A stretch of DNA of 64,000 nucleotides from Terfezia claveryi (lineage: Eukaryota > Ascomycota > Pezizomycetes > Pezizales > Pezizaceae): contig WHUX01000039.1 of assembly GCA_015179025.1 (NCBI GenBank), forward strand, positions 1 to 64,000, written 5' to 3'. This document shows, piece after piece, positions 9,108 through 56,471 of the stretch. Position numbers and translations under genes: made by a program. Each line of letters starts with the position of its first letter. Positions within the stretch are counted from its first letter, which is position 1. Below the pieces are notes generated by a model. The model did no database searches and was not told where the DNA came from. It saw nothing but the letters and a program-made list of their open reading frames with translations.

Positions 9108-10189
9108 CTACAGAACAGATGGAACAGTCCTTGAGAAGGGCTGACAGGGGTTCTGTGGTTGTGAGAAACCTTCAGGAGTGGAACCCTACTCTTGAAGGTA
9201 CCTTAAAGAGAAGGGCTGTCTCACCTAAGTGTAAGGATGAGGCAGACAACAAGAAGGTGCACTTTCAGCCTCCTCCTCCTCCAGGAGCCTCACCTGCATC
9301 CTCTATCAGCACCCTTCCTGACATCTTCCCTGAGGATCCAATCCTCCCATCCTCCTCCAACAAAGCTCATGACAAAGAGTTTTGTTCCCAATGTGGTAGA
9401 GTGGGCCACAAAACTTCCAAATGCAACAACACAGAGCCTGGTATTAACCTCTGTGACAATTGTTGGGCAATAGGACACTTCAAGGAGGATTGCCCCAAAA
9501 GGACTAAGTTTCCTCCTCCCAGATGCACCAATTGCATGGAAACAACTCACCTCAGCAACAAATGCCCCCTTGACAACAAACTCTATCCACTGCAACATCC
9601 ACTGCCAGCAGAAACCATCAGGAAATGCATCATATGCAACCAAGATGGTCACTGGTCCTATCTATACCCAAATCTTCCAAAAGTCACTACCACAGGAGGA
9701 AAATTGATACCAAGATGCAAGTATTGTCTTGGCTACCATAACCTGAACAAAAACTTTGTCAGCTCCTGTGACACTAGGAAAAACAATCTGAAGGCCCTCA
9801 ATAAGCCCTTCTACAACAGTGACTACCTGAAAAAGACACTAGGAGTCCAGGAAGAAGATGAAAAGAGCATGGAACCAGATTTGGTAATTGCTGAGTGGAT
9901 AAGAGATCATGAGTTGGAATGGCATTATAGAGAAGAGCTGGAAAAAGATACAGTGTTTGGACCATTGTACTTAAGGGTTAAGAAAGGAGAGCAAGTACCT
10001 ACAGTAAAGGTACAGGATGGGTTTATGTACCTCTTGAAGAATTTTGCTTGGAGGATAGTCATTCCCAAGGGACTACAAGTTAAAGGTAACCCTGCCTCTG
10101 AAGTCCTTATCCAACAAGCACATGTCACTACTGGACATGGAGGCCTTGCAAAAGCAGCAGAAGAGCTTACCAATAACTTCATAAATGAA
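9104..10189 (+). pseudogene. gypsy B zinc-knuckle array and integrase N-terminus
   Basis: A long open frame with an unusual layout. Residues about 88-215 hold five knuckle-like units in tandem: CSQCGRVGHKTSKC, CDNCWAIGHFKEDC, CTNCMETTHLSNKC, a degenerate CIICNQDGHWSYLY, and CKYCLGYHNLNKNFVSSC. The later part is a normal integrase entry: VKVQDGFMYLL, VIPKGLQ, then the HHCC zinc-region start HVTTGHGGLAKAAEEL. It breaks off after NNFI, where palindromic element C is inserted, and the rest of the integrase resumes near 16975. CCHC knuckles bind nucleic acid and normally sit in gag; five of them between RNase H and integrase is odd. Confidence 0.85.
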
Positions 10190-10814
10190 TATAGTTTGCC
10201 TTTATAGCATCTGACACCTTCGGTGCTACTAATGACAAACTGCCAGTTACCGGCATGCTCCGCTGTTTCTCTGTCTCCCCGACACCGGCTCTTCACAGGC
10301 TGCCTGCTGACGCTGGCACCACATGGTCCTCCTCCTGACCCTGACGTTCCTGCACAATCATCAGGAACTAGCTCTGACGCTATGTCTTAGGAGGTACCGC
10401 TCTGGCGCCGTGTTTTCTGAAGTGCCGCTTTGATACGTGTCTTTAACATCGACGCCCTAGTACAACTACCTGATAGGCAAACCACTTTGTGCGCTCAGAG
10501 CATGGAGGTGATAGCAGCTATACATTGCAAGAACTATATACGTTTGAATTTCTATATACATAGCTAAGCTATAGATGCACTTCCAACGAACCATTCTCTT
10601 ATGCATCCCACTTGAACTCATCCTGCGCATATGCCTCCAAAAATCCTAGCGGTTCCCTGATCTAAGCCGTCTGCAAAGTCGTTATCGCTGTGCTTTGATC
10701 TAATAATATCCATATAGCTATTAACAACAGAACGCTGATATCGCGAGACTGCACATACCTAGAGCTACCTAATTGCTGGCTGATGTAGTCATCCACTGCC
10801 ATGAGCAACGCCTA

Positions 10815-11460
10815 TTACTAGAGCAATTAGCTATGCATTCCCATAAAGTCCATGGATTTGCTGGCGAGTTCAGGTACCTAGGTATATCTGCGCATATAGA
10901 TGGGGAATATCTCAGAAGTGCACTTAGGGAGTCCTAAGAGCAATTAGTTATGCCTTCACATACAGTCCGCTGGTTTTCTGGCGAGTTCACGTACCTGGCT
11001 ATGCCTGTGTCTGCCCATATAGATTGGGGATATATCGGAACTGCACTGGCGGAGTCCTAAGAGCAATTAGCTATACATTCACATAGAGTCCGCTGGTTTT
11101 CTGGCCAGTTCACGTACCTAACTATGCCTGTGTCTGTGCATAGAGATTGGGGATATATTGGAACTGCACTGGCGGAGTCCTAAGAGCAATTAGCTATACA
11201 TTCACATAGAGTCTGCTAGTTTTCTAGCGAGTTCACGTACCTAGCTATGCCTTACACTGGGGGAGTCCTAAGAGGAATTAGACATACATTCACATAGAGT
11301 CCACTGGAATTCTAGCGAGTTCACATACCTAGCTATGCCTGTGTCTGCGCATATAGATTAGGGATATATCGGAACTGCACTGGCGGAGTCCTAAGAGCAA
11401 TTAGCTATACATTCACATAGAGTCTGCTGGTTTTCTGGCGAGTTCACGTACCTAGCTAGC
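10815..11460 (+). repeat. about 123-bp tandem repeats, left arm of C
   Basis: Units begin CTAAGAGCAATTAG near 10933, 11056, 11180, 11268 and 11391, with a diverged unit at about 10818; one unit is shortened to about 88 bp. Each contains TGGTTTTCTGGCGAGTTCAC and a GGGGATATATCGGAAC segment. Confidence 0.88.
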
Positions 11461-11779
11461 TATGTCTCCGCATATAGATGGGGGATATCTCGAGAGTGTA
11501 CTGGGGGAGTTCTAACCTCAGCTTGACCTGCCGCCGACTGGCTGGTTGAGTTACCTGTGCAAAGAGGGGGCACACGTGCTCTCGCGTTATGTTCGTTCAC
11601 GCATGCCTGGAAATATGTCTCAGTTGAAGCGGCCGACAAATATGTGTGATTAGCAGGAAGGCAGATTGGCGCACGCTGGTGTGACAGATCAGCACATGCA
11701 TGTTTCAGGCTACATATGCCTGCCAGCCATGAGATTACCGAATCGGGTAATAGGTATGGAAGAGGAGCCCTTATGGCAG

Positions 11780-12150
11780 GCTTGTAAATATGGACTTGTT
11801 TATGCGAGAAACTCATACTTTTCGAGGCTTCTAGATATATATGCGAGAAACTCGTGCTTTTGTGACTTATATATATATATATGCGAGAAACTCGTGCTTT
11901 TGTAACTTATATATATATATACGAGAAACTCGTGCTCTTGAGGCTTATTAGTATATATGCAGGAAACTTGTGCTTTGGAGATATATATATATATATATGA
12001 GAAACTCGTGCTTTTTGAGGCTTATATATAGATATGCAAGAAACTTATGCTTTTCGAGACTTATATATATATATGCAGGAAACTCATGCTTTGGAGATAT
12101 ATATATATATATATGCAAGAAACTCGTGCTTTTGTGACTTATATATATAT
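11780..12150 (+). repeat. AT-rich tandem repeats, left arm of C (outer part)
   Basis: Repeats of the type ATATATGCGAGAAACTCGTGC followed by TTTTGTGACTT or TTTGGAGATAT spacers, separated by TA runs. The same array continues at 14067-14440 after the inserted element H and appears inverted at 14445-15065. Confidence 0.9.
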
Positions 12151-14066
12151 GTTCTGGTCCGTTCCGGGATCCGAGCCATACCGGTATGGACTGGATATCG
12201 CAACGGACTAGGCCGTTACGGGATTAAATTGTTCAATGTTACGGATAGCAACAAGGATTTACCACAACACCACAGCGGCCACAGTGACATTAAAAGTACT
12301 AAATAGGGACATATCCGATATGAAGGTAATTTTGTTAAAGAATATCGGAGATAACATAAGTGACCTATCGAAGAAAATACTCAGTAGAGGTATACCCGAA
12401 ATGAAGGTTATTATGTAGAGAAACCTTAGTTCAAAGAACAAGAAGTTGTAGCATGCGCAATAGTAGCCTTTAAAGATCATGATACCATAACTTCTTTGCA
12501 ACAAACATAAGTATTTTAACCATTGCTTTACTTAATTACACTCTTACCAGTCTCTACAATATTACACTCTTACCACCAGCGGAAGCATGCAAAACACCAT
12601 TATCTAGAGCCAGCGGAAGCATAAATTGCATGCATATATAGAGGCCGAAAAGCCATCATTTCTATATGTTTGTCTTCTCATTCATTTCCCATATATGGGT
12701 ATTTCCTCCTTTGTGCTAGGTTTTCCCAATTGCAGGAGGAGCCCCAACCGACGCGGTGGGATGATTGTAGGTAAGACATGTAATCTGGTTTTAAGACAGC
12801 GCCAGTTGATCCAATGGCTGGTGGCAAGACACGGCAAGTCCCTATTTCCAAGGTGTGCCCGGCTGGGACTTAGAGCTTTTCTCCTGTTCATTCCTTCCAA
12901 ATAATTTTGCTCACTCAATTCTACCTGGTTTGCTTGCTCATTTTCTTGCTCATTTTCTCGCTTATTTGCTCGCTCATTTTCTTGCTAATTTGCTTACTCG
13001 ATTCTAGGCTGATTTGCTCGCTCGATTGTATGCTGATTTGCTTGCTTGATTCTAGGCTGATTTGCTCGCTCGATTATATACTGATTTGCTCACTCGATTA
13101 TATGCTGATTTGCTTGCTTGATTATATGCTGATTTGCTCGCTCGATTCTAGGCTGATTTCCTCGCTCAATTATATGCTGATTTGCTCACTCGATTATATG
13201 CTGATTTGCTTTCTCGATTATATGCTAATTTGCTCGCTCGATTATATGCTGATTTGCTTGCTCGATTATATGCTGATTTGCTCGCTCGATTCTAGGCTGA
13301 TTTCCTCGCTCGATTATATGCTGATTTGCTCGCTCGATTATATGCTAATTTCCTCGCTCGATTATATGCTGATTTGCTCGCTCGATTCTAGGCTGATTTC
13401 CTCGCTCGATTCTATGCCAGTGGTGATTTCCTTGCTCAATTCTTTGCTGATTTCCTTTCTCAATTCTAGGCTGATTTGCTTGCTCAATTCTACGCTGGTT
13501 TGCTCGCTCATTTTCTCGCTAATTTGCTTGCTCGATTGTATGCTGATTTGCTCGCTCGATTGTAGGCTGATTTCCTCGCTTGATTCGGTGATATCCTTGC
13601 TCAATTCTCTACTGATTTCCTCGCTCAATTCTAGGCTGATTTCCTCGCTCGATTCTAGGCTGAATTGCTTGCTCAATTCTAGCGGATATCCAGGTTAATA
13701 TGGACAGTGAATTGCAGGCTCATATGCACGGTGAATCTAGCATTCTAGGGACGCGGATGTGAAGGCTGGTATAGATGGGGGTTTTGGGGTGCAGCGTGTT
13801 AGATAGCCTTATTAGATAATCGTAAGAATAAAATGGATTATTTCAAAATGCATATAATGCAGATGAACTACAAGAACAAGCGCGGTAGCGCGGGCACGGA
13901 CCAATGAATCTAGGAATATGGCATCAAATGATTTACGTTGGTTAGGCCAAATAAGTTGGGTGTGCGTAAGGAAATATAAGAAGATATGAATATTTATGCC
14001 ATCCCGGAACGGCCTGGGTAATCTTGCAATCTCGCAATAGCCTGGAATCCCGGAACGGACCAGAAC
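12151..14066. mobile_element. element H: TIR element nested in C
   Basis: 1,916 bp bounded by near-perfect terminal inverted repeats: left GTTCTGGTCCGTTCCGGGAT, and the exact complement of that sequence followed by one mismatch at the right end (about 14045-14066). A second, weaker inverted match lies inside (GGCCGTTACGGGAT near 12209 against GGCCGTTCCGGGAT on the other strand near 14010). Both flanks are (TA)n, so a target duplication cannot be resolved. It divides the AT-rich array of C, so it arrived after C had formed. No transposase motif was recognised; the interior is a minisatellite plus unassigned sequence. Confidence 0.75.
12907..13690 (+). repeat. 24-bp minisatellite inside element H
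   Basis: About 30 copies of a unit close to CTGATTTGCTCGCTCGATTA plus TATG. Because 24 is divisible by three, the array is open across its length in one plus frame (263 codons, an LICSLDYM repeat) and partly in a minus frame (a SSEEISLELSEQ repeat). I regard these frames as by-products of the repeat, not as genes. Confidence 0.92.
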
Positions 14067-15065
14067 ATATATATGCGAGAAACTCATGCTTTTCGAGGCT
14101 TCTAGATATATATGCGAGAAACTCATGCTTTTGAGGCTTATTAGTATATATGCGGGAAACTCGTGCTTTGGAGATATATATATATATATGCGAGAAACTC
14201 GTGCTTTTGTGACTTATATATATATATGCGAGAAACTCGTACTCTTGAGGCTTATTAGTATATATGCTGGAAACTTGTGCTTTGGAGATATATATATATA
14301 TATATGCGAGAAACTCATGCTTTTGTGACTTATATATATATATGTGAGAAACTCATGCTTTTCGAGGCTTCTAGATATATATGCAAGAAACTCATGCTTT
14401 GAGACTTATATATATATATATGCGAGAAACTTATCATTAGTTTCATCTGGAAGCCTCGAAAAGCATGAGTATATATATAAGTCTCAAAGCACGAGTTTCT
14501 CGCATATATATATATATATCTCCAAAGCACAAGTTTCCCACATATATACTAATAAGCCACAAGAGCACGAGTTTCTCGCATATATATATATAAGTCACAA
14601 AAGCACGAGTTTCTCGCATATATATATATATATCTCCAAAGCACGAGTTTCCCGTATATATACTAATAAGCCTCAAGAGCATGAGTTTCTCGCATATATA
14701 TATATAAGTTACAAAAGCACGAGTTTCTCACATATATATATATATATCTCCAAAGCACAAGTTTCCCGCATATATACTAATAAGCTTCAAGAGCACAAGT
14801 TTCTCGCATATATATATATAAGTCACAAAAGCATGAGTTTCTCGCATATATATATATATAAGTTACAAAAGCACGAGTTTCTCGCATATATATATATATA
14901 AGGCACAAAAGCACGAGTTTCTTGCATATATATCTAGAAGCCTCGAAAAGCATGAGTATATATATATCTCCAAAGCACGAGTTTCCCACATATATACTAA
15001 TAAGCCTCAAAAGCACGAGTTTCTCGCATATATATCTAGAAGCCTCGAAAAGCATGAGTTTCTCG
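14067..15065. repeat. palindrome centre of C: inverted AT-rich tandem arrays
   Basis: 14067-14440 carries the array in the left-arm orientation (GCGAGAAACTCATGC units). At about 14440-14450 the orientation flips (CTGGAAGCCTCGAAAAGCAT), and 14450-15065 carries the same units as their complement (GCACGAGTTTCTCGCATATA). The two halves could pair over hundreds of bases with almost no loop. Confidence 0.9.
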
Positions 15066-15409
15066 CATAAACAAGTCCATATTTACAAGCCTGCTATGAG
15101 GGCTCCTCTTCCATACCTATTACCCACTTCGGTAATCACATGGCTGGCGGGCATATGTGGCATGAAACATGCATGTACTGATCTGTCACACCAGCGTATG
15201 CCAATCTGCCTTCCTGCCAATCACAAATATTTGTCGGCCGTGTCAACCGAAACATATTTCCAGGCATGCATGAACGAATATAACACAAGAGCACGTGCGC
15301 CCCCTCTTTGCACAGGTAACTCAACCAGCCAGTCGGCGGCAGGTCAAGCTGAGGTTAGGACTCCCCCAGTGCACTCTTGAGATATCCCCCATCTATATGC
15401 GGAGACATA

Positions 15410-16260
15410 GCTAGCTAGGTACGTGAACTCGCCAGAAAACCAGTGGACTCTATATGAATGTATAGCTAATTGCTCTTAGGACTCCGCCAGTGCAGTTCCG
15501 ATATATCCCCAATCTATATGCGTAGACACAGGCATAGCTAGGTACGTGAACTCGCCAGAATACCAGCGGACTCTATGTGAATGTATGTCTAATTGCTCTT
15601 AGGACTCCCCCAGTGCAAGGCATAGCTAGGTATGTGAACTCGCCAGAAAACCAGCGGACTCTATGTGAATGTATAGCTAATTGCTCTTAGGACTCCGCCA
15701 GTGCAGTTCCGATATATCCCCAATCTCTATGCACAGACACAGGCATAGCCAGGTACGTGAACTCGCCAGAAAACCAGCGGACTGTATATGAAGGCATAGC
15801 TAATTGCTCTTAGGACTCCCCCAGTGCAAGGCATAGCTAGGTACGTGAACTGGCCAGAAAACCAGCGGACTCTAGCTAATTGCTCTTAGGACTCCGCTAG
15901 TGCAGTTCCGATATATCCCCAATCTATATGTGCAGACACAGGCATAGCTAGGTATGTGAACTGGCCAGAAAACCAGTGGACTCTATGTGAATGTATAGCT
16001 AATTGCTCTTAGGACTCCGCTAGTGCAGTTCTGATATATCCCCAATCTATATGCGCAGACACAGGCATAGCCAGGTACGTGAACTCGCCAGAAAACCAGC
16101 AGACTGTATGTGAAGGCATAGATAATTACTCTTAGGACTTCGCAAGTGTACTCCTGAGATATTCCCTATCTATATGCGCAGACATACCTAGGTACATGAA
16201 CTCGCCAGCAAATCTACAGACTTTATGGGAATGCATAGCTAATTGCTCTAGTAATAGGCA
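15410..16260 (-). repeat. about 123-bp tandem repeats, right arm of C
   Basis: Complement of the left-arm array: repeated blocks with GTGAACTCGCCAGAAAACCA and CTAATTGCTCTTAGGACTCC, about seven units, some shortened to about 60-90 bp. More units than the left arm, so the arms have drifted by unit gain or loss. Confidence 0.88.
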
Positions 16261-16974
16261 TTGCTCATGGCAGTGGATGACTACATCAGCCAGCAATTGG
16301 GTAGCTCTAGGTATGTGCAGTCTCGCGATATCAGCATTCTGTTGTTAATAGCTATATAGATATTATTAGATCAAAGCACGGCGATAACGACTATGCAGAC
16401 GGCTCAGATCAGGGAACCGCTAGGATTTTTGGAGGCATATGCACAGGATGAGTTCAAGTGGGATGCATGAGAGAATGGTTCGTTTGAAGTGCATCTATAG
16501 CTTAGCTATGTATATAGAAATTCAAACATACATAGTTCTTGCAATGTATAGCTGCTATTACCTTCATGCTCCGAGTGCACACAGTGGTCCACCTATCAGG
16601 TAGTTGTGCCAGGGCATGGATGTACACATACACCACGGTGGCATCTCAGAACACAAGGCGCCAGGGTGGTACCTTGGAAGATATGGCGCCCGAGCGACAC
16701 AAGGGCTAAGGTTCCTAGGGTGCACAGCTAGAAGAGGGCAATCGTCAGGGCGCCTGGTAATGGTGTTGTGGCATCGGGGTTACCTGATGCACAAGGTGGG
16801 TCAGGTAGAAGATAGTCCGTCAGGGCGCCGGGAGCAGGCATTGCGGTACAGAAATATATATCCTGATGTGCCAGAAGTGGCGTCGGGGCGACCTAACGCA
16901 GAGGGCAGGAGAGGTACAAGGTGGTCCATTAGGGCGCCTGCAGGGGGCGTTGCAGTACAGAAATATCTATCCTG

Positions 16975-18190
16975 ATGAAGTACATCTTTCAGGATTTTTA
17001 TAAGCAGGTTGAACAATTTGTGAGGAGTTATGAAACCTGTCAAATCACCAAAGGATCCATACAGAGACCCCCTGGATTCCTTACTCCTCTGAATGTACCT
17101 ACTAGGCCATGGAGCAGTATGGCTATGGATTTTCTTAGTATGGAACCTGCTATAATTTTATGTACTGAATTTACTCTTGGTTACAGAACTCCTAAAGATG
17201 ACAAGCCTCACATATTGTTATTTCATAAGTTATTAGTCATGACTGACAGGCATTCTGATTTCACATTTTTGTTACCTGTTGCAGACAATGTTGATACATT
17301 AGGGGTTATTGATATCTTTGAAAGATTTATTAAGCCTAATGTGGGATTTCCTTATGAAATTGTTTCTGACCAAGACCCCTTGTTTATGTCCACTGTTTTT
17401 CAAGATTGGATGCAGAAAAATGGAATTATGTATAAAGCATCTTCTACATATCACCCCCAAACTGATGGGATAAGTGAAAGGAAGAATAGGACAATTATTC
17501 CTATGTTTGCAGCTAAGAAGCTGGAGCAAGGATTGAATTGGGTACAAGCCACACCTTCTGTTCAAACAGAGGTGAATGTAAGAGTTAGTACTACAAGAGG
17601 ACTTTCCCCCTTTTTTACCAAGCTAGGATACCAGCCTAATTTGTCACCACCTATCCTACCTCACCCAATTCCTACCTATTCAAACCCTACAACCAGATTT
17701 TACCAGGTTGCTGAAAACCTTACCAAAGCAAAAAGGGACCAAATTCAGCAAGCCAACAAACTCCCCTGATTACCAAATCAATGATCAGGTGATGCTATCA
17801 ACAAAAAACCTCCCAGCAAGGTACCACTCCTCCAAACTATCCCCAAAATGGATAGGCCCCTTCACTATTACCAAATATTCACCATGGAGTCAAAATGCTA
17901 AACTTGACTTCACTGACTTCCCTGACCTCAATAATATCAACAATTCCTTCCACACCTTACTTCTCAAACCCTTCTTCCCTAATCCAATACAACTGTTCCC
18001 CTCTAGAACTCTGGAACAACCAAGACCAGTTAAGGAAGACAGGTATGAGGTAGAAAGAGTTTTGGAATTTAGGTCACAACCTAGAACAGGGAAGCTGCAG
18101 TACAAGGTGAAATGGAAGGGATGGCCTCATAAATTTGATGAGTGGGTATATGCTGATGGTGTTGATGAGTCATTGAAAAAACAATTCTAG
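16975..18190 (+). pseudogene. gypsy B integrase core and chromodomain
   Basis: Resumes the B integrase after element C. The first frame (16975-17769) gives YKQVEQFVRSYETCQITK (the CC half of the HHCC zinc finger) and the catalytic triad in MAMDFLSME, SDQDPLFMS and DGISERKN. A segment of about 25 residues between DFLSMEP and VMTDRHSDF is longer than in A and D. A shift near 17710-17770 moves to a second frame that gives the VMLSTKNLPARYHSSKLSPKW block and a chromodomain, RYEVERVLEFRSQ with GKLQYKVKWKGWPHKFDEW, at about 18040-18150, ending at 18190. Chromodomains guide such integrases to heterochromatin. The frameshift and the element C insertion make the copy inactive. Confidence 0.92.
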
Positions 18191-38049: not shown

Positions 38050-38860
38050 ATTGGATTCAGTAGATTCAGTTCTAGTAGATTCAAATTCTAGTAGATTCAG
38101 ATTCTAGTAGATTCAGATTCTTGTAGATTCAGATTCTAGTAGATTCAGATTCTAGTAGATTCAGATTCTAGTGGATTCAAATTCTCGTAGATTTAGATTC
38201 TTGTAGATTCCGATTCTAGTAGATTCAAATTCTAGTGGATTCAAATTCTAGTAGATTCAGATTCTTGTAGATTCAGATTCTAGTACATTCAGATTCTAGT
38301 ACATTCAGACAGTGTCACCAACCAGCCAGGCCAGCCTTCAGTCCGCCGGGGGCCTGGACTGAGGGCCGAGGTCCGTACTGGTCTGAAACAGCCTGGACGG
38401 GCCCCGGCGGGCTATCTTATGGACTGCAGTTCGACCAGTCCGATCAGTCCGACCAATCCACCCAGTCCGCCCAGTCCATCTACAACCTGCTCTTGTGGGT
38501 ATGCATGCCGGCCTGATAAGTCAGGCCAGTCCCCGGCTGAGCTCAATGGGCCTGCTTGACGGCCGGACTGGCCGGCCCGATCCAAGTACTGCATTCAGAT
38601 TCTTGTGGATTCAGATTCTAGTGGATTCAGATTCTAGTAGATTCAGATTCTAGTACATTCAGATTCTCGTAGATTCAGATTCTTGTAGATTCAGATTCTT
38701 GTAGATTCAGATTCTAGTACATTCAGATTCTAGTACATTCAGATTCTAATAGATTCAGATTCTAGTACATTCAGATTCTAATAGATTCAGATTCTAGTAG
38801 ATTCAAATTCTAGTAGATTCAAATTCTAGTAGATTCAAGCTGATCCTATCCATCTATTCT
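38050..38860 (+). repeat. 16-bp minisatellite, interrupted by a 282-bp element
   Basis: Units close to AGATTCAGATTCTAGT, with TTGT, TCGT and TACA variants, on both sides of the inserted element at 38310-38591. About 16 units lie left of the insert and 15 right of it. Confidence 0.93.
38310..38591. mobile_element. hAT-like non-autonomous element, 282 bp
   Basis: Begins CAGTGTCACCAACC and ends ATCCAAGTACTG, so the outermost inverted bases are CAGT/ACTG with only weak similarity further in. It is flanked by CATTCAGA at 38302-38309 and 38592-38599, an exact 8-bp duplication as made by hAT transposases. It is GC-rich (GGCCGG-type words), unlike the AT-rich array around it. No coding capacity. Caution: the target itself is repetitive, but removal of element and one 8-mer restores the 16-bp register. 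Confidence 0.72.
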
Positions 38861-45617: not shown

Positions 45618-46049
45618 TGTTGAAAAGCACGTGAGTTCACATATGTTGGCCACTCATGTCATTGCGGCTACTCAGGTCATACAATGACATTTATTAACAT
45701 ATGTCATGTCTGCCACTCATGTCATTGCGGCTACTCAGGTCATACAATGACATTCATTAACATATGTCATGTCTGCCACCGATGTCATGTCGGCCACTCA
45801 TGTTATTGCGACACTCACTCACGTATCTCCAGCATTTCCTGCTTTCCAGCAATACTTAGTCTTTAGCATTATCCCTTAAGTGTATATAGAGCTGGCCTGA
45901 CTGCCTCTTCTTTAGAGGTTAAGGGGATATACAACTCATACGTTCTCATACAACTCATACGTTCTCGTACTGGTGAAGTGACTCTTTGTTGATCATTAGC
46001 TATCTTATCCGCTCGCTAGTGTTGCTACTCCTACAAGGTCATTCCAACA
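45618..46049 (+). repeat. 5' LTR of copia element E
   Basis: 432 bp with TGTTG...CAACA ends, followed by GGTTATGACCCCC (possible primer-binding site). It contains two tandem copies of an about 60-bp unit (ATGTCATTGCGGCTACTCAG) and TATATAG near 45882. Polyadenylation site not seen. Confidence 0.9.
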
Positions 46050-46062
46050 GGTTATGACCCCC
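46050..46062 (+). other. possible primer-binding site of E
   Basis: GGTTATGACCCCC directly follows the CAACA LTR end; position fits, the tRNA was not identified. Confidence 0.4.
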
Positions 46063-46133
46063 GGTGCACGCGCAAGACAGTATTCACCATAACTCCTCTT
46101 TACGAGAACTCCTCCATAACGAACTTCTTCAAC

Positions 46134-46242
46134 ATGGAAGAAACAATACCCGCAATGACTGTTGCTAGCAGCTCTCAAAATCAAGTTGCACCCGCAACGA
46201 CTTCTGCTACAACGACTCCTGCAACCACAATCTCTCTACCTC
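46134..46242 (+). pseudogene. copia E gag, first part (before D)
   Basis: ATG at 46134 opens METIP-like, Thr/Ala-rich gag N-terminus (VASSSQNQVAPATTSAT). It is cut after 36 codons by gypsy D. D plus one 5-bp duplication is 5,751 bp, a multiple of three, and the frame continues as PIISPFPRSFALSKDF at 51994. Confidence 0.85.
46238..46242. repeat. target-site duplication ACCTC (left) of gypsy D
   Basis: ACCTC before TGTAACG at 46243 and again at 51989-51993 after the other end of D. Confidence 0.93.
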
Positions 46243-46391
46243 TGTAACGTGGCACGAGGGGCGTAGTGACCAAGGGGTACGAGCGGAGCGGGGGCAGAAG
46301 GCAGAGGCGAAGGTGGAGGCGAAGGCGAGGACAAAGGCCACGGCAAGGCAAGGCAAGGCAATGCAAAGGCGGAGGGGAGGTCCAGGACGTA
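46243..46391 (-). repeat. 3' LTR of gypsy D, truncated to 149 bp
   Basis: Identical to 51435-51583 except for two neighbouring differences (CCACGG against CCATAG). The remaining U3/R part is gone; pol sequence begins at once. Confidence 0.88.
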
Positions 46392-46399
46392 ACCAATTC

Positions 46400-47177
46400 C
46401 AGGACGACAAGAACATCATGGGGCGGGGCGGGGCTTCCGGGGGTAACGCTGGTGGAACAGGGCGACCAAGTCCTGTGCATTTTCCAGATCTTCGGCGGGT
46501 TGCCAGGTCGACTCTTCATCCCCCAGCCATTTGACCTTATACTGCAACCGCCCATATCTCTTCCGCGAGTCTAGTACCTCCTCCACCTCCCATTCCTCTT
46601 CACCTTCGATAACCACTGGAGGGGGTGGGGGGTGTTTCTGTCCTGGGAGAGGGTCATCCGCAGCGGGCTCGATCTCGGAGACATGAACAACCGGGTGCCG
46701 TTTGATGTCTTTGGGGAACCTCAATCGATAGGCGTGAGTTCCCACAGCTGCCAATACCTCAAAGGGGCCCAGGAACTTATGATCCAGCTTGTGGGAGGGG
46801 CGTTCTGTTCGGAAGTGCCGGCTGGAGAGCCACACCTTGTCTCCTGGCTGGTGTCTGGGGGCTGGCAGCCGTGATCCATTGGCATACTCAGCTTGCCTGG
46901 CTTGTGCATATCCCAGCTCGGCTTTCAGGGTACGGTGGAGTTCAGCGATTCCAACCGCGAACTCCTTGGCCGGGGCATCTTTTTTGGCTTTTTGCAGGGG
47001 CGCCAGGGCATCCACGAACCGGGGGTGCCAACCGTAGTTAGCCAGGAAAGGCGAGGTTTTGGAGGATTCTGAGAACTGGTTGTTCGCGGCAAATTCGCAG
47101 GTGGCCAGCAACGAAACCCAGTTATCCTGCTGGTAATTGACAAAGGCCCGCAGATATTGCTCCATAATGGCGTTCAT
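46400..47177 (-). pseudogene. gypsy D integrase C-terminal half and chromodomain
   Basis: Open from 47177 with MNAIMEQYLRAFVNYQQDNWVSLLATCEFAANNQFSES (core end), GWHPRFVDALAPLQK, LPAPRHQPGDKVWLSSRHF and HPVVHVSEIEPAADD, then a chromodomain EEEWEVEEVLDSRKRYGRLQYKVKWLGDEESTWQPAEDL at about 46590-46480. The normal stop after YPRKPRP is lost through the deletion and the frame runs into LTR sequence. A frameshift near 47175-47210 separates it from the upstream half, which ends GSKHVCPRHITPRRTAN instead of continuing to [12 protein letters not shown]. Confidence 0.93.
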
Positions 47178-48034
47178 CCTCTCCGATTGGCCGTCCGTCT
47201 GGGGGTGATATGCCGTGGACAGACGTGCTTTGATCCCAGAAGTTCGCAGAAGGCTTGCCAGAATTCTGAGGTAAACTGGGGGCCACGGTCGGATACGATC
47301 GATTCAGGGATGCCATGGTATCGGAATATATTATTGAGGTAGAGATTGGCTAACTCTGGGGCAGAGCAGGTATCCCGGCAAGATATAACATGCCTCATTT
47401 TCGTCAACCGATCCACCACCATCAAGATGGCATTGAACCCTGAATCTTCCGGCAACCCTGTTACGAAGTCCATAGTCAGGTGCAGCCACGGCCGATCAGG
47501 GATATCCAGAGGTTTCAGGGTCCCATACGGGGCGTGGCGGACAGGCTTAGCACGTTTGCAAACGTGGCAGTTCCATATGTACCGCTCCACGTCCTTCCGT
47601 TGGTCAATCCATGTGTACTCCCTGGCCAGAAGCTCTAACGTTTTGGCCACTCCAGGGTGACCTGCAACCAGGCTGTCATGGTGTTCCTTGATCAATCGAA
47701 GGCGCAGCTCTCCTTCCGGCACATACAGCCGTTCGAGGTGGTAGAGGAGGCCTTCCTGGACGGTACACTCGGCTAGGGAGATCTTGGGGTGGCGGCGCTG
47801 GCCAGAATCCACTGCGGCGATAATTTCCTTGGCCAGGGGGTCATCCTTGTATGTCTGTCTCACCAGTTGTCGGAGGTCGGCTTCCATGGCGGCCTCAGCT
47901 TCCGCATCAGCCTCAGCTTCCGCATCAGCCTCAGCTTCCGCATTAGCCTCAGCTTCCGCATCAGCCTCAGCTTCCGCATCAGCCTCAGCGAGGACATTGG
48001 CCGCCAGATCAAGGTTTTCGGGCTTCAATACCAC
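47174..48034 (-). pseudogene. gypsy D integrase N-terminal half
   Basis: Starts with VLKPENLDLAANVLAEADAE, then an 18-bp tandem repeat coding (AEAEAD)n at 47995-47890. Next come LVRQTYKDDPLAKEI and the zinc region with EHHDSLVAGHPGVAKTLELL and CHVCKRAKPVRHAPYG, where all four ligands are kept (H, H, C, C). The DDE core has MDFVTGLPEDSGF, MVVDRLTKM and SDRGPQFTSEFW (two catalytic Asp). A frameshift near 47200 detaches the Glu-containing part. This is the best-preserved integrase of the family here. Confidence 0.93.
47890..48000 (-). repeat. 18-bp tandem repeat in D pol
   Basis: About six units of GCCTCAGCTTCCGCATCA (plus strand). Encodes an acidic Ala/Glu/Asp run between RNase H and integrase. 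The equivalent place in A (1745-1800) has only a short version, so the unit number varies. Confidence 0.9.
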
Positions 48035-48048
48035 CTGATTTTGGTATT

Positions 48049-49455
48049 TTAGCCTTTCATCCCCCCCTTAGGGAGATCTCCTGATCTTCGGGTTAATGCA
48101 TCGGGCTTGCCCCCAGTCTTTCCCGGCCGGTATCTGATCTTGAAGTTGAACCGAGATAAGAACTCCGACCACCTAGCTTGCCTTTGGTTAAGCAGCTTGG
48201 TGGTGGTGAAATACTCAAGGTTCTTATGATTGGACAACACCTCGATAATTCCCTTAGCTGACTCCAGGTGTGGCCTCCACTCCTCGAATGCCCGCACAAT
48301 GGCCATCAGCTCTTTATTATAAATCTCGTAGTTGTACTCAGCTGGGGAGTGCTTTTTTGAGAAGTATACCACTGGGTGGAGGATGCCATTGTCATTGTTC
48401 TAGGATAGGATTCCCGCGGAGACATAGTCGGAAGCATCGGTTTCAACAACACACTCCTGGTCAGGGTTGAAATGGGCGAGGATTGGTGCTGAGCAGAAGG
48501 CTTCCTTGAGGTTCTGGAAGGCAGATTGGGCTTCTGGATTCCAGTTGAAACGCCGGTCTTTTTTGGTCAGGGCGGTGAGGGGTGCTACGATTTTCGAATA
48601 CCCTAGAATGAACCGCCAGTAGAAGTTAGCGAATCCCAGGAAGGCTTGGACGTCCTTGAGATTTGCTGGGGTTTGCCATTCCTGGACAGCGGTGACCTTG
48701 GTGGGGTCCATCCTGATACCTTCGGTAGTGATAATTAACCCCAGATACTTGACCTCCTGTACATGAAACTCGCATTTCTTGGGCTTGAGGTATAATCCGG
48801 CTTGCTCCAGCTTTTCCAACACTTGACGGACATGTATCCTGTGCTCTGCTAGGGTGTCCGAATAGATCAGGATATCATCGAGATAAGCCGTGTAGAACAC
48901 ATCCAAGAAGTCTCGTAGGGTGTCATTAATGAAGTGTTCGAAAGAGGCCGGAGTGTTGGTTAAGCCGAAGGGCATGACATTATACTCGAAGTGGCCATAA
49001 CGAGTTCGGAAGGCAGTTTTCCACTCCTCCCCCTCAGCGATCCGTACCAGGTTGTATGCCCCTCTCAAATCCAGTTTGGTGAACCATTTGGCCTTGGAGA
49101 GCCTGGCTAATGTCTCTTGGATTAAGGGTAGGGGGTACCTGTTTTTGACCGTTATCTCGTTTAGGCCCCGGTAATCGACGCACAACCGGAGAGAGCCATC
49201 TGATTTCTTCACGAAAAGCACCAGGGCACCCGCTAGTGAGGAGCTGTGGCGAATGAAGCTCTTGTTGAGGTTTTCCTCCAAGTATTTCTTCAAAGCTTCC
49301 AGCTCCAACCAGGACATTCCGTAGAGGGGGCCATAGGGGGGGGTCTTACCCTCTATCAGCGGAATCGTGTGGTCATATGGCCGGTGGGGAGCGAGTTTTT
49401 CTGCGGCCTTTTCCGAGAACAGGTCGATGAATTCATGGTATTCGTCCGGCACCAT
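48049..49455 (-). pseudogene. gypsy D reverse transcriptase and RNase H
   Basis: RT motifs all present: [59 protein letters not shown] (first Asp), [18 protein letters not shown] and [13 protein letters not shown] (catalytic Asp pair near 48885), with thumb [18 protein letters not shown]. RNase [26 protein letters not shown], then, after a TAG near 48402 (Gln in A), [26 protein letters not shown] and [12 protein letters not shown]. Upstream it is joined to protease by an in-frame TAG (Trp in F) near 49457. Only these two stops stand in the way of a full frame. Confidence 0.94.
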
Positions 49456-49461
49456 TGACTT

Positions 49462-50187
49462 CTACTCCTCCTTCGACCGTGTCTTATTAATCTCCAAATT
49501 TACCTCATATATAGACAGGGCATGAGCCTTCAGCTTGTGCCTCCTGATGAGGTAAGCGAAAGCCCCTGCTCCGATGAAGCTAACATTCAGGGTTTTTAGA
49601 GGGGGTAAGACAGAGGAGTCAGGGGAAACCGGGAGCACAGGGGAGTTGGCATCAAGGTGCGCAGGCAGGTGCACCACCTGGGTCGGGTGGATTATCGGGG
49701 CGGGCAAGGCACACAACCCAGTAACGGTGGCCTTTGGATTCCCGCAATGTTTTTTGCAATATTGGCTGTTGAACTGCAGGGTATAGGAGCCGAAGCTGAC
49801 CGATACATCGTGCATTCTAAGCCAGGGGATTCCAAAGACAATCGGGTATTTGAGCTTTGTCACGAACATTGGGAGGTTTGCTTCAGAGTGATCCCCGACC
49901 AGGGCAGGCACGCACGCAATCTCGGTGATATCGCCGGAGGAGATGGACCGACCGTCGATGACATCCAGGACACGAGGGGTTTTAAGCTTGGACGTGGGCA
50001 TGGAGAATTTACTGACGAAGGCCTGGTCAATGAATGCAATTCCTGAAGCTCCGCAATCTATAAGGGCTGACATGGTGATTGTTCTATCATTGATTTTGAG
50101 AGAGATAGATACAACAAAGTGCTTGCTGAACAAGCGAGATTCGTCAACAACAGAAGCAGAAGAAACAGAAAATGCAGACAAAGACAA
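49462..50187 (-). pseudogene. gypsy D protease and linker to RT
   Basis: 241 codons. ALIDCGASGIAFIDQAFVSK carries the retropepsin Asp (D-C-G-A). GDHSEANLPMFVTKLKYPIVFGIPWLRMHDVSV is the second conserved block. Then CKKHCGNPKATVTGLCALPAP and a Pro/Val-rich linker, ending [42 protein letters not shown] before the stop. Opens at MSLSAFSVSS, 36 bases after the gag stop region, so expression would need readthrough or reinitiation. Confidence 0.9.
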
Positions 50188-50222
50188 ATGGCCTGGGGCA
50201 AGTCCCTTGCTAGTGTTAGTAA

Positions 50223-51398
50223 CTAGGCAAGGGACAGGGCTTTTCCCACCTCGTCAACCTCCTCGATCCTGGGCACAGGAGTGTCGGAAATGGCATGGAT
50301 AGCCAGGGGGCGGCTTTTTCGGAGGGGACATGCCGCAATAAAATGGTCCCCTTTTCCACACGCAATGCACAACCCATTAGTGCGGCGGCGGTCCCTTTCC
50401 TCCTGGGTTAGTCGAGGCCTTCCCGATGATAGGTCCATAGGGGTGGCTCCTCCGGCCACAAACGAAGGGTGGGCCGGCTTATTGGCAGGGGCAGGGGCCG
50501 CTATTTTGGTGGCCTGGTGTTGCTGGGGTTGTGGGAGACGGGGTGCTAGCCTGTACGTGGGGCGGTTGCGGAGCCGGGACATCCGCTGTTCTACTCGGGA
50601 AGCCTGGTCAATGAATTCGTCAAGGGTTTTGGCTTCCGGGAGGCTGACCATGGCCTGCTGGATTTCGTCATTTAGCCCTTCCTGGAATTGCTCCAGTTTG
50701 GACTGGTCATTCCATCAGACCTCCGCCGCCAATCTCGAGAATTCTGCCACATAAGTAGACAGATCGGTGTTTTTCTGCCTGAGGGCTCAGAGGGCCCTAC
50801 TGGCAGTGCCAACGGCATCGGGGTCCCCGAACACCCTATCCAGGATTGTGAAAAGGGCCGAGATATTATCAAGCTTGATCCCGGTTTCAAGGACATATGG
50901 CTGGATCTGGTCGCAAGCTTTCCCCTCCAGCAAGGCGAAAACGTATGCCAGTCGATGTTGTTCCAACGGGAACCTGGCAGAATCCCCGTTTAGCTTGAGA
51001 TTGACTGCATTCTTCTAGGCTCGTAGACGAGCCCGGTCCCCATTGAACTTGGGGGGTGTCGGAATGCTTTCGGTCTTGTTGCTACTGGCTGCTGTTGTTG
51101 TTGGTATTGCCAGGTTTGCTAGAGCCCGGCTGAGGTTTTGGACCGTAGTCCGTTCGTTGGCTAGGGCAAGGTTTACATGGTCGAGATCCATCTGGAGGAC
51201 TGTGATCTCTTCGTCGGCGGATCTCAGCTTTCGTTCGGCCACGGCCAGGCTGTTGCCGAGTTCGGCCCCGATGGTATCCATGGCCTCGAAGATGTCGATG
51301 ATTTCTCGACGATAGGCATTTAATTTGTTCGGGCCTGAGGGTATAGGGGAGTTTCTCCAGGTTTGAAACCTGACAGCGGGTGGAGGGGTTCCGGACAT
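50223..51398 (-). pseudogene. gypsy D gag with CCHC knuckle
   Basis: Start ATG at 51398 (MSGTPPPAVRFQTW). The coiled-coil region is RREIIDIFEAMDTIG...VAERKLRSADEEITVL. The capsid-like region (about 51010-50700) reads NGDSARFPLEQHRLAYVFALLEGKACDQIQPY. The C-terminal part has ASRVEQRMSRLRNRP and a CCHC knuckle CIACGKGDHFIAAC, ending GKALSLA at 50223. Three in-frame stops: TAG near 51016 (RAW to RA*), TGA near 50788 and TGA near 50718, each one transition from Trp or Arg. It would form the particle shell. Confidence 0.92.
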
Positions 51399-51434
51399 GA
51401 CAGCATACCAGTTGGTCGATAAGATCCAACGTAG

Positions 51435-51988
51435 TGTAACGTGGCACGAGGGGCGTAGTGACCAAGGGGTACGAGCGGAGCGGGGGCAGAAGGCAGAGGC
51501 GAAGGTGGAGGCGAAGGCGAGGACAAAGGCCATAGCAAGGCAAGGCAAGGCAATGCAAAGGCGGAGGGGAGGTCCAGGACGAAGGCGAGGGCGGAGGTGA
51601 GGACGGAGGCCAAGGCAAGGCAAGGCAAGGCAAAGGCGAAGTCGAAGGCGAAGGTGAAGGCGAAGGCGAGGTCGAAGGCCAAGGCAAGGCAAGGCAAGGT
51701 AAGGCAAGGCAAGACGAGGGGAGGTGCACGAGGAAGGTGCACCAGCATGGAGAGAAGCAAGATCCTGTATTAGGTATACAAGACGTTGGATGGGGATCCA
51801 ATGAGAGGGCGGAGAGAGCAAGCTATATATATAGGCTTCCTTTCTGGCCAAGGCCACCGGAAGGAATAAGGTTCCCGAGACCCCTTATCTCGGGAACAGA
51901 GATAACAACGATATCAATCAACAATAACGAGAGTCAGACGGAATCCCGTCTGACTCTCAAACCCGGCTAGGAAAGGACGGTTGTGACA
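51435..51988 (-). repeat. 5' LTR of gypsy D
   Basis: 554 bp; minus strand TGTCACAACCGTCC to CGTTACA. It contains a long purine-skewed AAGGCAAGGCGAAGG region (51480-51720) and an inverted repeat GAGTCAGACGG/CCGTCTGACTC at 51931-51956 in the place where A and F have their GCGATCGC palindromes. Confidence 0.93.
51931..51956. promoter_or_regulatory. inverted repeat in D LTR U3
   Basis: Arms of 11 bases (GAGTCAGACGG and its complement) around AATC. Same position in U3 as the palindromes of A and F but unrelated in sequence. Confidence 0.5.
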
Positions 51989-52463
51989 ACCTCCTATCAT
52001 CTCTCCCTTTCCCAGGTCATTTGCTCTCTCAAAAGACTTTTGCCATGAAGTTAAGCTCAATGGCATTGAGCCGCTCGAGGGGTTTAAGAATTATGAGAAC
52101 TGAGCATCTCAGATGACTATGGTATTTTATACCATAAATGTATTGGATATCGTTGTTGACGGTGTTCAACCCGATCCCAATGCATCTTCAGCTGAACAGG
52201 AGGGGTTTATGTCTCTTTCAAAACAGGCAATGCTAATCCTTATTTGAGTTATTAGTAACCCTCTTCTGAATAAGGTGTCTAAATACAGATCACCTCATGA
52301 TATTTGGAAGTACTTAAGAGAGACTTGTTTTAAAGACACTGCTTTTTCATTTATTCACCAAGTCGCTTGCCTCGGTGTTCTTTTCTCTAGGAAACTTGAA
52401 AAAGGCAAGCCTATATAAGAATTTTTAGATAAATTCGACAGTCAATGGAACAGGGTCTATCAA
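51989..52463 (+). pseudogene. copia E gag, second part (after D)
   Basis: Frame-matched continuation of 46134-46242: SFALSKDFCHEVKLNGIEPLEGFKNYEN, then a TGA at 52101, a TGA at 52245 and a TAA at 52416. Between them DIWKYLRETCFKDTAFSFIHQVACLGVLFSRKLEKGKP has the AWxxL-type copia gag helices. Each stop could arise from CGA or CAA by one C to T change. Confidence 0.85.
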
Positions 52464-54488
52464 ATGGCAACCGGTCCTGATGAGTATAAGCAAATGCTCA
52501 GAAAATTCCTAGAAGCAGACAAGGCAAAGCGGGATTTCTTATTGGCAGCTTTAAGCCATGAGTATCCCAATCCAGTGGATAATTTGACTACCAAAGCTAA
52601 TCTGACATATACAGAAGTCAGACATCATTTTCTGGGACTCGCATCCAATAATCAATTGGATCTCTCAGTTAACTTACCTAACGCAGCTCTGTTAACTCAG
52701 GCTCATGGTCCTAAGAAAGACCGAAAATGCCCTTTGGGCACAAAAGAGCAGAATAGTGAGAAGACCTGCACTTACTGCAAGAAACATGGAGGAATCTCCA
52801 ACCGCCATAACTGGCAAGAATGCCGAAAACTTAAGCGAGATCAAGCTCGCAAGCAGGATAAGGCGAATAAGGACAATTCTGGCAATAACAACCAGCAACC
52901 CTCTAAGCAATCTGACCAAGGTCTTATTGCAACCGCTCTTGTTACTGATGCTATGGACGTTGATCTCGCTCATGTCAGTACAAATTCATACTCCTGGAAG
53001 CTTGATACATGTGCAACAGCTTATATGACCTCTGATATAGGACGATTTGAGCACTTACAGCAGAGTTCTGGAACTGTGAATGTCGGAGGGAATAACTCTC
53101 TCTCTGTGGAAGGAATTGGCTCAGTCTTACTGAATTGCCTTCTTCCAAATAATGTTCACAGAATCGTTCGTCTTACTGCCATGCTTTACGTTCCTTTACT
53201 AGGTCATTTGCTTGTTTCATGGAATGTATTAAGGAATAAGGGATTTATGATGAAAGCGTATGGCAATAAGATTGTTGTGTTACATTCTACTTGTTGTTCT
53301 GCCAATTCTGTGTCTTCCGACAATTCTATGTTTTCAGGCAATTCTACTATTACTTCTGAGGAGGAAACTGAGCAACCTGTATTTATGGCCGAATTCAAAG
53401 GCAATCTCCCCTTTATTATCGAACATACAAACAGCTCGTTGCTTGCCTCTAATCAGGTCGCTGTGGCAATTCCCTCTAATCAGGCAATACCCTCTAATCA
53501 GGTCGCTGCGGCAATTCCCTCTAATCAGGCAATACCCTCTAATCAGGTCGCTGCAGCAATTCCCTCTAATCAGGCAATACCCTCTAATAAGGTTATCGGA
53601 ATGCCCTCTAATCAGGCCTCTGGAACCTCCTCTAAAAGAGCCCTCGAAACTGCAATGGAAGCCACCAAACAAGCCAAAAAGCCCAAAACGCAGGCAATAC
53701 ATTCTTATGATTTTTGGCACAGATCTCTAGCTCATTCGAGCAAAATGACTCACAAGGTATATATGGACGGATCGCTCCTACCCCCTATGCTTGCTGAATT
53801 CTTCTGCAGATCTTGTATTATGGCTAAATCCGTGAACGCAGTCCCACAGAGCCTTACTCAAGGCAGATCCACTCGCCCTTTCCAGCTGATATACAGCGAT
53901 CTGAGTGGAAAGCAATCTATACCTTCCTACGGAAACTCACAATATTACATTACTTTTATTAATGATTTTACCAGGATGGGTTGGATATACTTCTTAAAGA
54001 ACAAATCTCCGGATGTTCAACAGATCATTCAGGAATATATTACCCTCATGGAAAGGCAGTATAATACCACTGTCTTAAGCATGATTACTGACAATGGTGG
54101 AGAGTATATAGAAGCTGACAAATATCTAAGAATCAAGGGGATTCAGCATATCTATACACCTCCATATTCTTATCAGTCAAATGGGGTCCCAGAGTGCTAT
54201 AATAGGACAATACAGACAATAGTCCGCAGCATGCTAATTGACCTAAACCCAGCTAACGGTATCTCTGCAGAAGCTGGCAGCTCTGCAGACCTACGCCTTT
54301 GGGCAGAAGCATGTCTAGCCGCCATCTACATCTGTAATCGCTTACCCCATTCTCAGCTTTCTCAGAGAAAAACCCCCTTTGAGATGCTGCATAATGTACA
54401 ACCTTCTATTGCTCACCTCAAGCCCTTTGGCAGCATCTGCTACATCCATATACCTGTAGAACGCAAGCTTCCTGGAAGCAAGCTCTAG
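52464..54488 (+). pseudogene. copia E gag end, protease and integrase
   Basis: 674 open codons. A CCHC-like knuckle, CTYCKKHGGISNRHNWQEC, lies at residues about 105-125. The protease motif is WKLDTCATAYMTSD, with D-T-C in place of D-S-G, followed by the LLGHLLVSWNVL block. A Ser/Asn/Gln repeat (IPSNQAIPSNQVAAA) lies at residues about 330-385. GAG-pre-integrase is FWHRSLAHSSKMT with C-X2-C at FCRSCIMAK. The integrase core has QLIYSDLSGKQ, ITDNGGEYIEAD and SNGVPECYNRTI, so the catalytic triad D, D, E is complete. The frame ends at TAG 54486, within KL*PRAETAIFVGY, where copia elements have a sense codon. Confidence 0.94.
53445..53620 (+). repeat. tandem repeat in copia E pol
   Basis: About three 57-bp units coding AIPSNQAIPSNQVAA, between protease and pre-integrase; a length-variable linker. 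Confidence 0.85.
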
Positions 54489-54908
54489 CCAAGGGCTGAA
54501 ACAGCAATATTCGTTGGTTATACAGAATCCCCGTCCATTTATAGGGTCCAGCTAGCTAATAAGCATATATTTACCGTTAAGGCATCCAACTGCACATTCG
54601 CTGAGCAATTACCAGCGAATCGAGCTAAGCATATACCAGCGAGTCGAGCTGAGCAATTAGAGCACATACCAGCGAATCGAGCTGAGCATATACCAGCGAG
54701 TCGAGCTGAGCAATTAGAGTACGTACTAGCGAGTCGAGCTGAGCATATACCAGCGAGTCGAGCTGAGCAATTAGAGCACGTACCAGTGAGTCGAGCTGAG
54801 CAATTTCCAGCTAATCGAGCTGAGCAAACATCAGCTAAATTACCTCAACTCGAGCTTACCAAATCTACTGAATCCACCAAATTTACTTAATCCATAAATG
54901 CGCATACA
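54489..54908 (+). pseudogene. copia E integrase tail and repeat linker
   Basis: Same frame as both neighbours, bounded by stops at 54486 and 54888 (TAA, one change from CAA). Starts PRAETAIFVGYTESPSIYRV, the usual copia integrase end, then 54600-54830 is a tandem repeat of 24-33 bp units coding IPASRAEQLEH. Such linkers separate integrase from RT. Confidence 0.85.
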
Positions 54909-55682
54909 TTGCTTGCAACCGCTCTTGCGGTCAATGAGACTGAACCTAGGACGTTCAAGCAAGCAACCGAGTACGCAGACTCTCCACGATGGTATAAGGC
55001 CATGCAGGAAGAGCTTGAAACTCTGACGGATCAGTCTGTTTGGATGGTTGTGCCCTTACCTCCTCCAAGGCACAATATCGTAGGCTGCAAATGGGTCTAC
55101 AAGATTAAGAGGGATTCAGCAGGCAACATAAGCCGCTACAAAGCAAGGCTTGTTGCTCAAGGGTTTTCTCAGCAACCGGGGACGGATTTTGACGAGATCT
55201 TCTCTCCTGTTGTGAGGTATGATTCATTGAGATTACTGATCGCTCTATCAGTTTCTCTTACCTGGCCTCAGCCAGATCAGCTTGATATTAAAGGAGCTTT
55301 TCTATATGGTTCTCTAAACGAGGAAATCTATATGAAGCTTCCTCCTGGTTACGAACAATCTGGGCAATGTGCCCGTCTTAACAGGTCAATATACGGCCTT
55401 AAGCAGTCACTAAGACAATGGTATCAGAGGTTGACTGGCTTCCTTTTACTACTTGGATACGTGACAGCAAACTTTGATCCATGTATACTAATACATGTTG
55501 AACTACAAGTGATTATTGCCATATATGTGGACGATATCACTTTTACAGGTCCCAACAGCTTAGAAAGGGAAAAATTGAAAAATTCCCTTAAGGAGGAGTT
55601 CAACCTCAGCGATCTCGGTCCTCTAAGCTGGCTACTGGGCATCCAGATCGAATGGCATATTGACTGTGTTACCCTCTCATAG
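54909..55682 (+). pseudogene. copia E reverse transcriptase
   Basis: 257 codons: RWYKAMQEELETLTDQSVWMVVP, KWVYKIKRDSAGNISRYKARLVAQGFSQQPGTDFDEIFSPVV, then QLDIKGAFLYGSLNEEIYMKLPPGYE (first catalytic Asp), LNRSIYGLKQSLRQWYQ and IAIYVDDITFTG (catalytic YVDD near 55530). It ends in FNLSDLGPLSWLLGIQI and TAG 55680, which is CAG by one transition. All seven RT blocks are recognisable, so the enzyme fold would be intact but for the stop. Confidence 0.95.
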
Positions 55683-55700
55683 CAAGCATATATTGACCAA

Positions 55701-56471
55701 TTGCTCCTAAAATTTGGACTGCAGGATTGCAACCCGGTCTCTCTTCTCATGGATCCCAGCAGATTGAAGAATTTGCTAAAGGCCCGTGAGGGAGATGACC
55801 TTGCTGATTCCTCCAACTATAGGCAGATAATTGGCTCTCTTATGTACCTAGTGATTGGTACCAGGCCTGATCTTGCCTTCACCGTTTCTTCTCTCTCTCA
55901 GTTCTCGTCAGAGCCCACAAAGATCCATATGGGGGTATTAAAACAGACCCTTCGTTACCTTAAGGGAATGAGAAATCTGACACTCACCTACAGGAAACCC
56001 ATTACTGTGAATTTATCAGGCTATTCTGACTCAGACTTTGCTGGTGATAGAAATGACAGGAAATCCACCACGGGAAACATATTTCAGATTGCTGGCAATA
56101 CAATCTGTTGGAGATCGGTAAAGCAACGTTGTGTTTCAACCTCTATGGTCGAGGCTGAATACATCGCTCTTTCTACCTCTTCCAAACAGCTAATTTGGTT
56201 GCAGAATACACTGAAAGAACTCCATGTTGTGATTCCTTCTACTTTAAACGCTGACAATAATGGGACTATTGATCTTACAGATAATCCCCATATCAGTGAC
56301 AAAAGCAAACATATAGACGTTGCCTACCACCACATCAGAGATCTTGTGGAAACAGGCAAAATCAACGTCTTATGGATACCAGGTAACAGCAACTTAGCTG
56401 ATATCTGCACAAAGCCGCTGCCACGGCCTCATTTTCTTACTCTAAGGGAACAAATAATGCGAACATCTTGA
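55701..56471 (+). pseudogene. copia E RNase H region
   Basis: Same frame as RT. Opens with LKFGLQDCNPVSLLMDPSRL, then IGSLMYLVIGTRPDLAFTVSSLSQF and TLRYLKGMRNLTLTY. RNase H: SGYSDSDFAGDRNDRKSTTG (catalytic Asp), ISW-equivalent TICWRSVKQRCVSTSMVEAEYIALS (catalytic Glu) and ISDKSKHIDVAYHHIRDLV, ending in LADICTKPLPRPHF and TGA 56469. It removes template RNA during reverse transcription. Confidence 0.95.

Follow-up and report, generated by a model that had tools for sequence, protein, structure and literature searches.

The present analysis concerns a 64,000-nucleotide stretch of the Terfezia claveryi genome (assembly GCA_015179025.1, contig WHUX01000039.1, positions 1 to 64,000; hereafter the window), in which positions 10177-16977 are a mobile element without a recognised gene. 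With a probability of roughly 86%, this element is a non-autonomous transposon of the PlavakaB kind, related to CACTA, whose palindromic interior exchanges sequence and inverts between its two arms. A PlavakaB transposase from other copies with the same ends would recognise these ends, here called A and R, in trans, excise the element and insert it elsewhere, duplicating 2 bp of target DNA whose sequence is not fixed. Judging from a gene-bearing copy, a long palindrome of layered tandem arrays would have taken the place of the genes between the ends. This palindrome would be old along its outer edges, and its inner arms would exchange sequence within a copy by homologous recombination. Such exchange, the pattern of which is described below, would proceed by inversion of the interior between the arms together with gene conversion, and the palindrome would most likely be a passenger that persists through its mobilised ends.

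The true ends, 10177 and 16977, were set from the ends common to other copies and from the 2-bp duplication. They correct the span of 10190 to 16974 given by an earlier interpretation made from the letters alone (the sequence-only reading), which had also wrongly counted in a nested transposon at 12150-14067. Between the ends, two inverted arms of about 2.1-2.2 kb each, built in the layers B, C, D and E, surround a conserved asymmetric core, and the element is composed as follows.

10175-10176, no strand: left copy of the target-site duplication AA; the flank ..ACCAATAA precedes the element and AA follows it.
10177-10370, plus strand: A end, side-specific, without a counterpart at the other end; begins CTTCATAAATGAATATAG.. 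in the window copy.
10371-10819, plus strand: B, outer arm, left, from copy comparison.
10820-11515, plus strand: C, 123-bp tandem array, left, from repeat finding and copies.
11516-11800, plus strand: D, unique arm segment, left, from copy comparison.
11801-12149, plus strand: E, 38-bp AT-rich tandem array, left, first part, from repeat finding and copies.
12150-14067, plus strand: nested second transposon, outside the palindrome proper, with inverted ends TGTTCTGGTCCGTTCCGGGAT.
14068-14431, plus strand: E, 38-bp array, left, second part, from repeat finding.
14432-14459, minus strand: asymmetric palindrome core, in flipped orientation with respect to the A end; CTTCCAGATG on the minus strand at 14444-14453.
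14470-15069, minus strand: E', 38-bp array, right, from repeat finding and copies.
15070-15354, minus strand: D', right, 92% to D.
15355-16249, minus strand: C', 123-bp array, right, from repeat finding and copies.
16250-16695, minus strand: B', outer arm, right, 90% to B.
16696-16977, plus strand: R end, two copies of a 109-bp end unit; finishes ..TATCCTGATG.
16978-16979, no strand: right copy of the target-site duplication AA, from the reading of the flank.

When the window was compared with its own minus strand, 10820-12150 matched 14696-16009 (85%, E = 0.0) and 10371-11458 matched 15623-16695 (90%, E = 0.0), and the repeat finder returned inverted arms of up to 845 nt at 93%. Tandem periods of 123, 211 and 88 bp, together with the AT-rich period of 38 bp, were found in both arms, so that the inverted arms, their arrays and the centre near 14440 described by the sequence-only reading were recovered. 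The claim that the arms are inverted copies over their whole length holds for B to E and fails for the outermost segments, since A (194 bp) and R (282 bp) are dissimilar and are not inverted copies of each other, the inverted terminus spanning only about 5 bp; the outer edge of B, moreover, differs between the sides (see below). The view of the element as non-coding was borne out in the frames scanned: no Pfam family was recognised in four element-overlapping window frames of at least 150 amino acids (12874-13698, 14329-14901, 9925-10386 and 14862-15380, one of them lying within the nested transposon). The same was true of another copy, L015, in which 10 of its 13 frames of 100 amino acids or more were scanned, its longest frame having 163 amino acids. 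The gypsy pol that hosts the element is interrupted between its RNase H/zinc-knuckle part and its integrase core, in accordance with the gypsy interruption already noticed.

The family is known here from this genome (72.6 Mb in 794 contigs), to which the search was confined. A search with A and B, scoring the best 40 of 145 candidates, gave 38 usable matches after 3 of 41 rows without an A part were dropped, and a search with R and B, scoring the best 40 of 156 candidates, gave 33 after the removal of 12 of 45 rows that had no R part or were a second row of one place. With 22 of these matches paired, 49 places were obtained and, as C136 and C237 may each have been counted twice, about 47 places are taken as a lower bound. 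For comparison, 30 loci were fetched besides the window copy. Among the 17 elements in which both A and R ends were recognised (window copy included), the 2-bp flanks match in 16, and the 3-bp and 4-bp flanks in 0 of 17 each; in a control that took the inner 109-bp R unit as the end, a 2-bp match was observed in 0 of 14, the chance being about 1 in 16 for each. The duplicated pairs vary (AA, TT, TA, CA, AC, GA, CC and GG). In L018 the recognised R end is a unit resembling the inner one, and L021, which has a deletion in its A end, reads AA/AA by eye and was left out of the count. The empty gypsy site, 38 bp long with only one AA, was moreover found 88 times across the genome when no more than three mismatches were allowed (20 exact), with 0 matches for the reversed pattern. 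Two copies at different sites, L024 and L025, do not differ in their ends over 774 kept columns, which indicates that some copies moved recently. The earlier claim that the element moved or was formed recently is therefore supported for the movement of some copies and not supported for the formation of the palindrome, whose outer B is 75-80% alike between sides.

These copies also bear on whether the palindrome could be an artefact of assembly or amplification, a proposal that is extremely improbable here. Palindromes do trouble this assembly, as a contig end lies inside the element at 9 of the 30 fetched loci (L010, L014, L017, L020, L027, L028, L031, L032 and L038), and the inversions described below could then be mis-joins. 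However, the two arms of the window copy are 85-93% alike rather than identical, one arm alone carries a nested insertion, and the family occupies its many places with different flanks, with 2-bp duplications and with an uninterrupted site. The genome search that the sequence-only reading had proposed thus returned other copies with the same termini, and not the single copy, the artefact or the disagreeing ends against which it had cautioned.

The assignment to PlavakaB comes from the ends. The A end starts with CATCACAAAGGAATATAG.. in most other copies and with CTTCATAAATG in the window copy, and the family ends, CATCACAAAGG.. and ..ATCCTGATG, with the aligned copies finishing ATATCTATCCTGATG, fit the CATCA..TGATG termini of PlavakaB, which is described as producing 2- or 3-bp duplications (PMC12730594). 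Because both the termini and the 2-bp duplications match published PlavakaB, the element is best read as non-autonomous PlavakaB and not as a classical foldback element. In addition, a copy at C155:40273-51222 holds both ends, which share with those of the window copy 87% identity over 177 bp (A) and 84% over 108 bp (R). By eye, it is flanked by TA on either side, and two overlapping frames in it match the Plavaka transposase PF18759 (E 2.5e-21 and 2.6e-14). The link between C155 and the transposase comes from the reading of 1.5 kb of C155 and from a later DNA search; a PF18759 family search, with 123 of 598 candidates scored, gave 127 matches, and C155 was not among the matches listed. The absence of a transposase reported by the sequence-only reading is consequently true of the element itself, but the same ends flank a Plavaka transposase in the same genome. 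A KDZ transposase was tried as the source and rejected, as PF18758 gave nine matches, none of them on C155. Separately, C155:45000-51350 (L039 and L040) contains pieces of a DUF6532 (PF20149) gene that point away from the transposase.

The relation between palindrome and transposase was followed through the R ends. R-end matches at no more than three mismatches numbered 69 (0 in the control), and the removal of 22 inner R units left 47 outer R ends. For the transposase, the DNA search with the 1.5 kb C155 query covered the best 40 of 109 candidates and gave 63 rows, of which 23 short secondary rows were dropped and 40 main rows used. On this basis, 32 of the 47 outer R ends adjoin segment B (taken from the best 40 of 156 candidates), and 12 are followed inward, within 5 kb, by the transposase in one and the same arrangement, at a distance of 2310-2328 bp in 9 of these 12. 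With the best 40 candidates scored in each search, no outer R end has both B and the transposase, and three have neither (on C3, C420 and C33), the one on C3 belonging to a palindromic copy.

In a classical foldback element, of the Mutator-like or the Galileo/P-like type, the long terminal inverted repeats with their tandem repeats would themselves be the recognised ends. Inverted arms with tandem arrays and the lack of recognised genes recall Tetris (PMC4079207) and Galileo (PMC4168063, PMC3688188), and copy-to-copy structural variation is a further likeness to these elements and to the foldback elements of flies, the analogue chosen by the sequence-only reading. That analogy holds for structure only. 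Here the palindrome is internal and each side has its own end, the inverted terminus measuring 5 bp; the outermost 194 and 282 bp do not mirror each other. The duplications are of 2 bp (16 of 17) against the 8-10 bp given for Tetris (PMC4079207), and the same ends carry a Plavaka transposase instead of the Mutator or P transposase of the published systems (PMC4079207, PMC4168063, PMC3688188). A classical foldback element is therefore very improbable. It is likewise quite improbable, though less so, that the arm arrays serve as extra transposase-binding sites that aid transposition, as proposed for Galileo, whose long inverted repeats are stated to contain further binding sites (PMC3688188). 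Repeated CTGACG/CGACGCC motifs are indeed present in the A and R ends; yet in L015, the one copy in which the motif CTGACG, chosen by eye, was counted, it has three occurrences in A, four in R and a single one in B, and is absent from C, D and E of the left arm.

In Y-chromosome palindromes, gene conversion takes place between the arms of the same palindrome, and the arms of the present family show a comparable pattern, in that the inner arms are more alike within than between copies and decay at the outer edge; the difference is that here the palindrome belongs to a multi-copy transposon, seemingly with inversion of its interior. Exchange between arms was assessed for B and for D, and its pattern is seen in B from about base 250 inward and in D. 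Across copies, bases 1-50 of B are 90.9% identical on the same side and 75.0% on different sides; this gap narrows to 1.4 points at bases 201-250 and is no more than 0.2 from base 251 inward. In D no side difference was observed (91.0% same-side versus 91.2% different-side), and identity reaches 94.8% within a copy (25 pairs) versus 91.3% between copies (1353 pairs). Some length changes are also common to both arms of one copy (L029, L018 and L033). The palindrome thus looks old along its edges and young towards the middle, consistent with gene conversion within copies.

The core allows the orientation of the interior to be read. Of 31 loci (the window copy and the 30 fetched), 26 have an asymmetric core of about 30 bp at their centre; among the remaining five, L014, L020, L031 and L038 run into a contig end before reaching the core, and in L035 none was seen. 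Relative to the A end, the core is in the same orientation in 17 and flipped in 8 of 25 copies, a count composed of 23 scored copies (15 and 8) plus L018 and L028, both in the same orientation, from a separate core reading; for some copies the R end served as the reference, and L026, which has an A end on either side, was left out. L024 and L025, despite identical ends, have opposite cores and an inverted interior match of 4.68 kb at 98.1%, and opposite cores were also verified in L012 and L013, a tree-supported sister pair. Since the inner arms carry no side identity and the core is found in either orientation, the arms seem to exchange and invert. A stronger version of this idea, in which recombination between arms flips and homogenises the interior and the resulting structure, as a cruciform or hairpin RNA, is selected for spread or for escape from silencing, is rather unlikely; if true, a selected, self-correcting palindrome would constitute a foldback-like system tied to the CACTA/Plavaka group.

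Several observations weigh against a mobilised PlavakaB derivative with exchanging arms. Regarding the ends, the first five bases of the window copy are CTTCA and not CATCA, L024 is the single element of the 17 without a 2-bp match, and L026, with its two A ends, has no matching duplication; L026 (C136:11607-17117), whose left flank is common with L028, is possibly a recombinant or a mis-assembly. As for the partner, the C155 transposase was read over 1.5 kb only, as two overlapping frames, and no intact gene was shown. With respect to exchange, identity over the whole of B within a copy (91.1%, 21 pairs) is not above that between copies (92.4%), so that exchange is not seen at the outer edge of B; not every row could be given a side label, so that 44 of 52 rows were used for B and 46 of 53 for D, and the within-copy pairs include a few from neighbouring elements (L022 and L035). 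Concerning inversion, L024 and L025 also align collinearly at 99% apart from a central stretch of about 0.93 kb, and with both inverted and collinear matches the inverted part may range from 0.9 to 4.7 kb. The inverted match of L012 and L013 covers one half of the interior only (2.59 kb at 98.1%), and mis-assembly of palindromes could mimic flips. The minimum number of core changes on the tree, obtained without a shuffle control, was 6 (19 copies) or 4 (A side, 22 copies), and is no reliable number because the tree is poorly resolved, with 12 of 15 inner branches open.

When each copy is compared with the majority letter for its side, the substitutions prove to be chiefly C-to-T changes, with rates of 8.2% at CpG (272/3332), 2.4% at other C or G (313/13102) and 0.26% at A or T (42/15950). 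The window copy, at 14.7% at CpG, is the third highest of the six copies shown (0 to 25%). C-to-T changes that are strongest at CpG suggest that the copies are methylated, and methylation with a strong CpG preference is described for the black truffle (PMC4165359). This pattern would also suit a hairpin-RNA generator, in which read-through transcription of the element would supply small-RNA silencing with long double-stranded RNA, perhaps against its relatives. Such a role, which is compatible with a PlavakaB derivative, is unlikely on the present evidence: arms of about 2.1 kb around a short core would fold back, but matches of the interior to the readable part of the transposase-bearing C155 copy (8.2 of 10.95 kb) are no better than E 0.03, so that the double-stranded RNA would mainly hit palindromic copies and not obviously the transposase. 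Furthermore, as the two genes of C155 point outward towards the ends, no promoter would be expected from A or R.

Other features of the window accompany the element. The left E array is split at 12150-14067 by a different transposon with perfect 21-bp inverted ends, which was inserted into a TATATA of the array, holds a 24-bp array of its own and has no Pfam family in its long frame. The termini of its family, TGT..ACA, resemble those given for PlavakaA (PMC12730594), and as TATA precedes 54 of 57 exact end matches in the genome, TA repeats, array E of the palindromes among them, seem to be the targets of this transposon. At 45618-56929, direct repeats of 358 bp at 99% (45618-45975 and 56572-56929) flank copia-like frames, and an oppositely oriented gypsy lies between 147-bp repeats at 98.6% (46243-46389 and 51435-51581); named by eye from the translations, this region looks like a gypsy nested in a copia. 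Short tandem repeat blocks with a period of about 16 bp, estimated from match offsets, are present at 38054-38837 and are 88-91% alike. The protein encoded at 59832-60638 is closest, itself aside, to one of Terfezia claveryi (78%), and Terfezia is named in seven of its eight non-self hits; on this one protein, the DNA probably comes from a relative of the desert truffles (Pezizomycetes).

Compared with known systems, the family shares with PlavakaB its CATCA..TGATG termini and 2-bp duplications (PMC12730594), and its ends are common to PF18759-bearing copies in the same genome; it differs from PlavakaB in that this element has no recognised genes and its interior is a palindrome of layered tandem arrays. 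No palindromic Plavaka element was found in the titles and abstract openings of the literature searched, which is no proof of absence. Foldback-like structure has mostly been linked with Mutator, Galileo, which belongs to the P superfamily, being one of the exceptions (PMC4079207, PMC4168063), and here it is tied to Plavaka, with the partner in the same genome. In a family of about 47 palindromes, a lower bound, gene conversion from arm to arm and inversion become measurable, because the fixed ends and the asymmetric core record the orientation of the interior. The family is thus known in its ends and unusual inside, a PlavakaB variant with a foldback-like anatomy.

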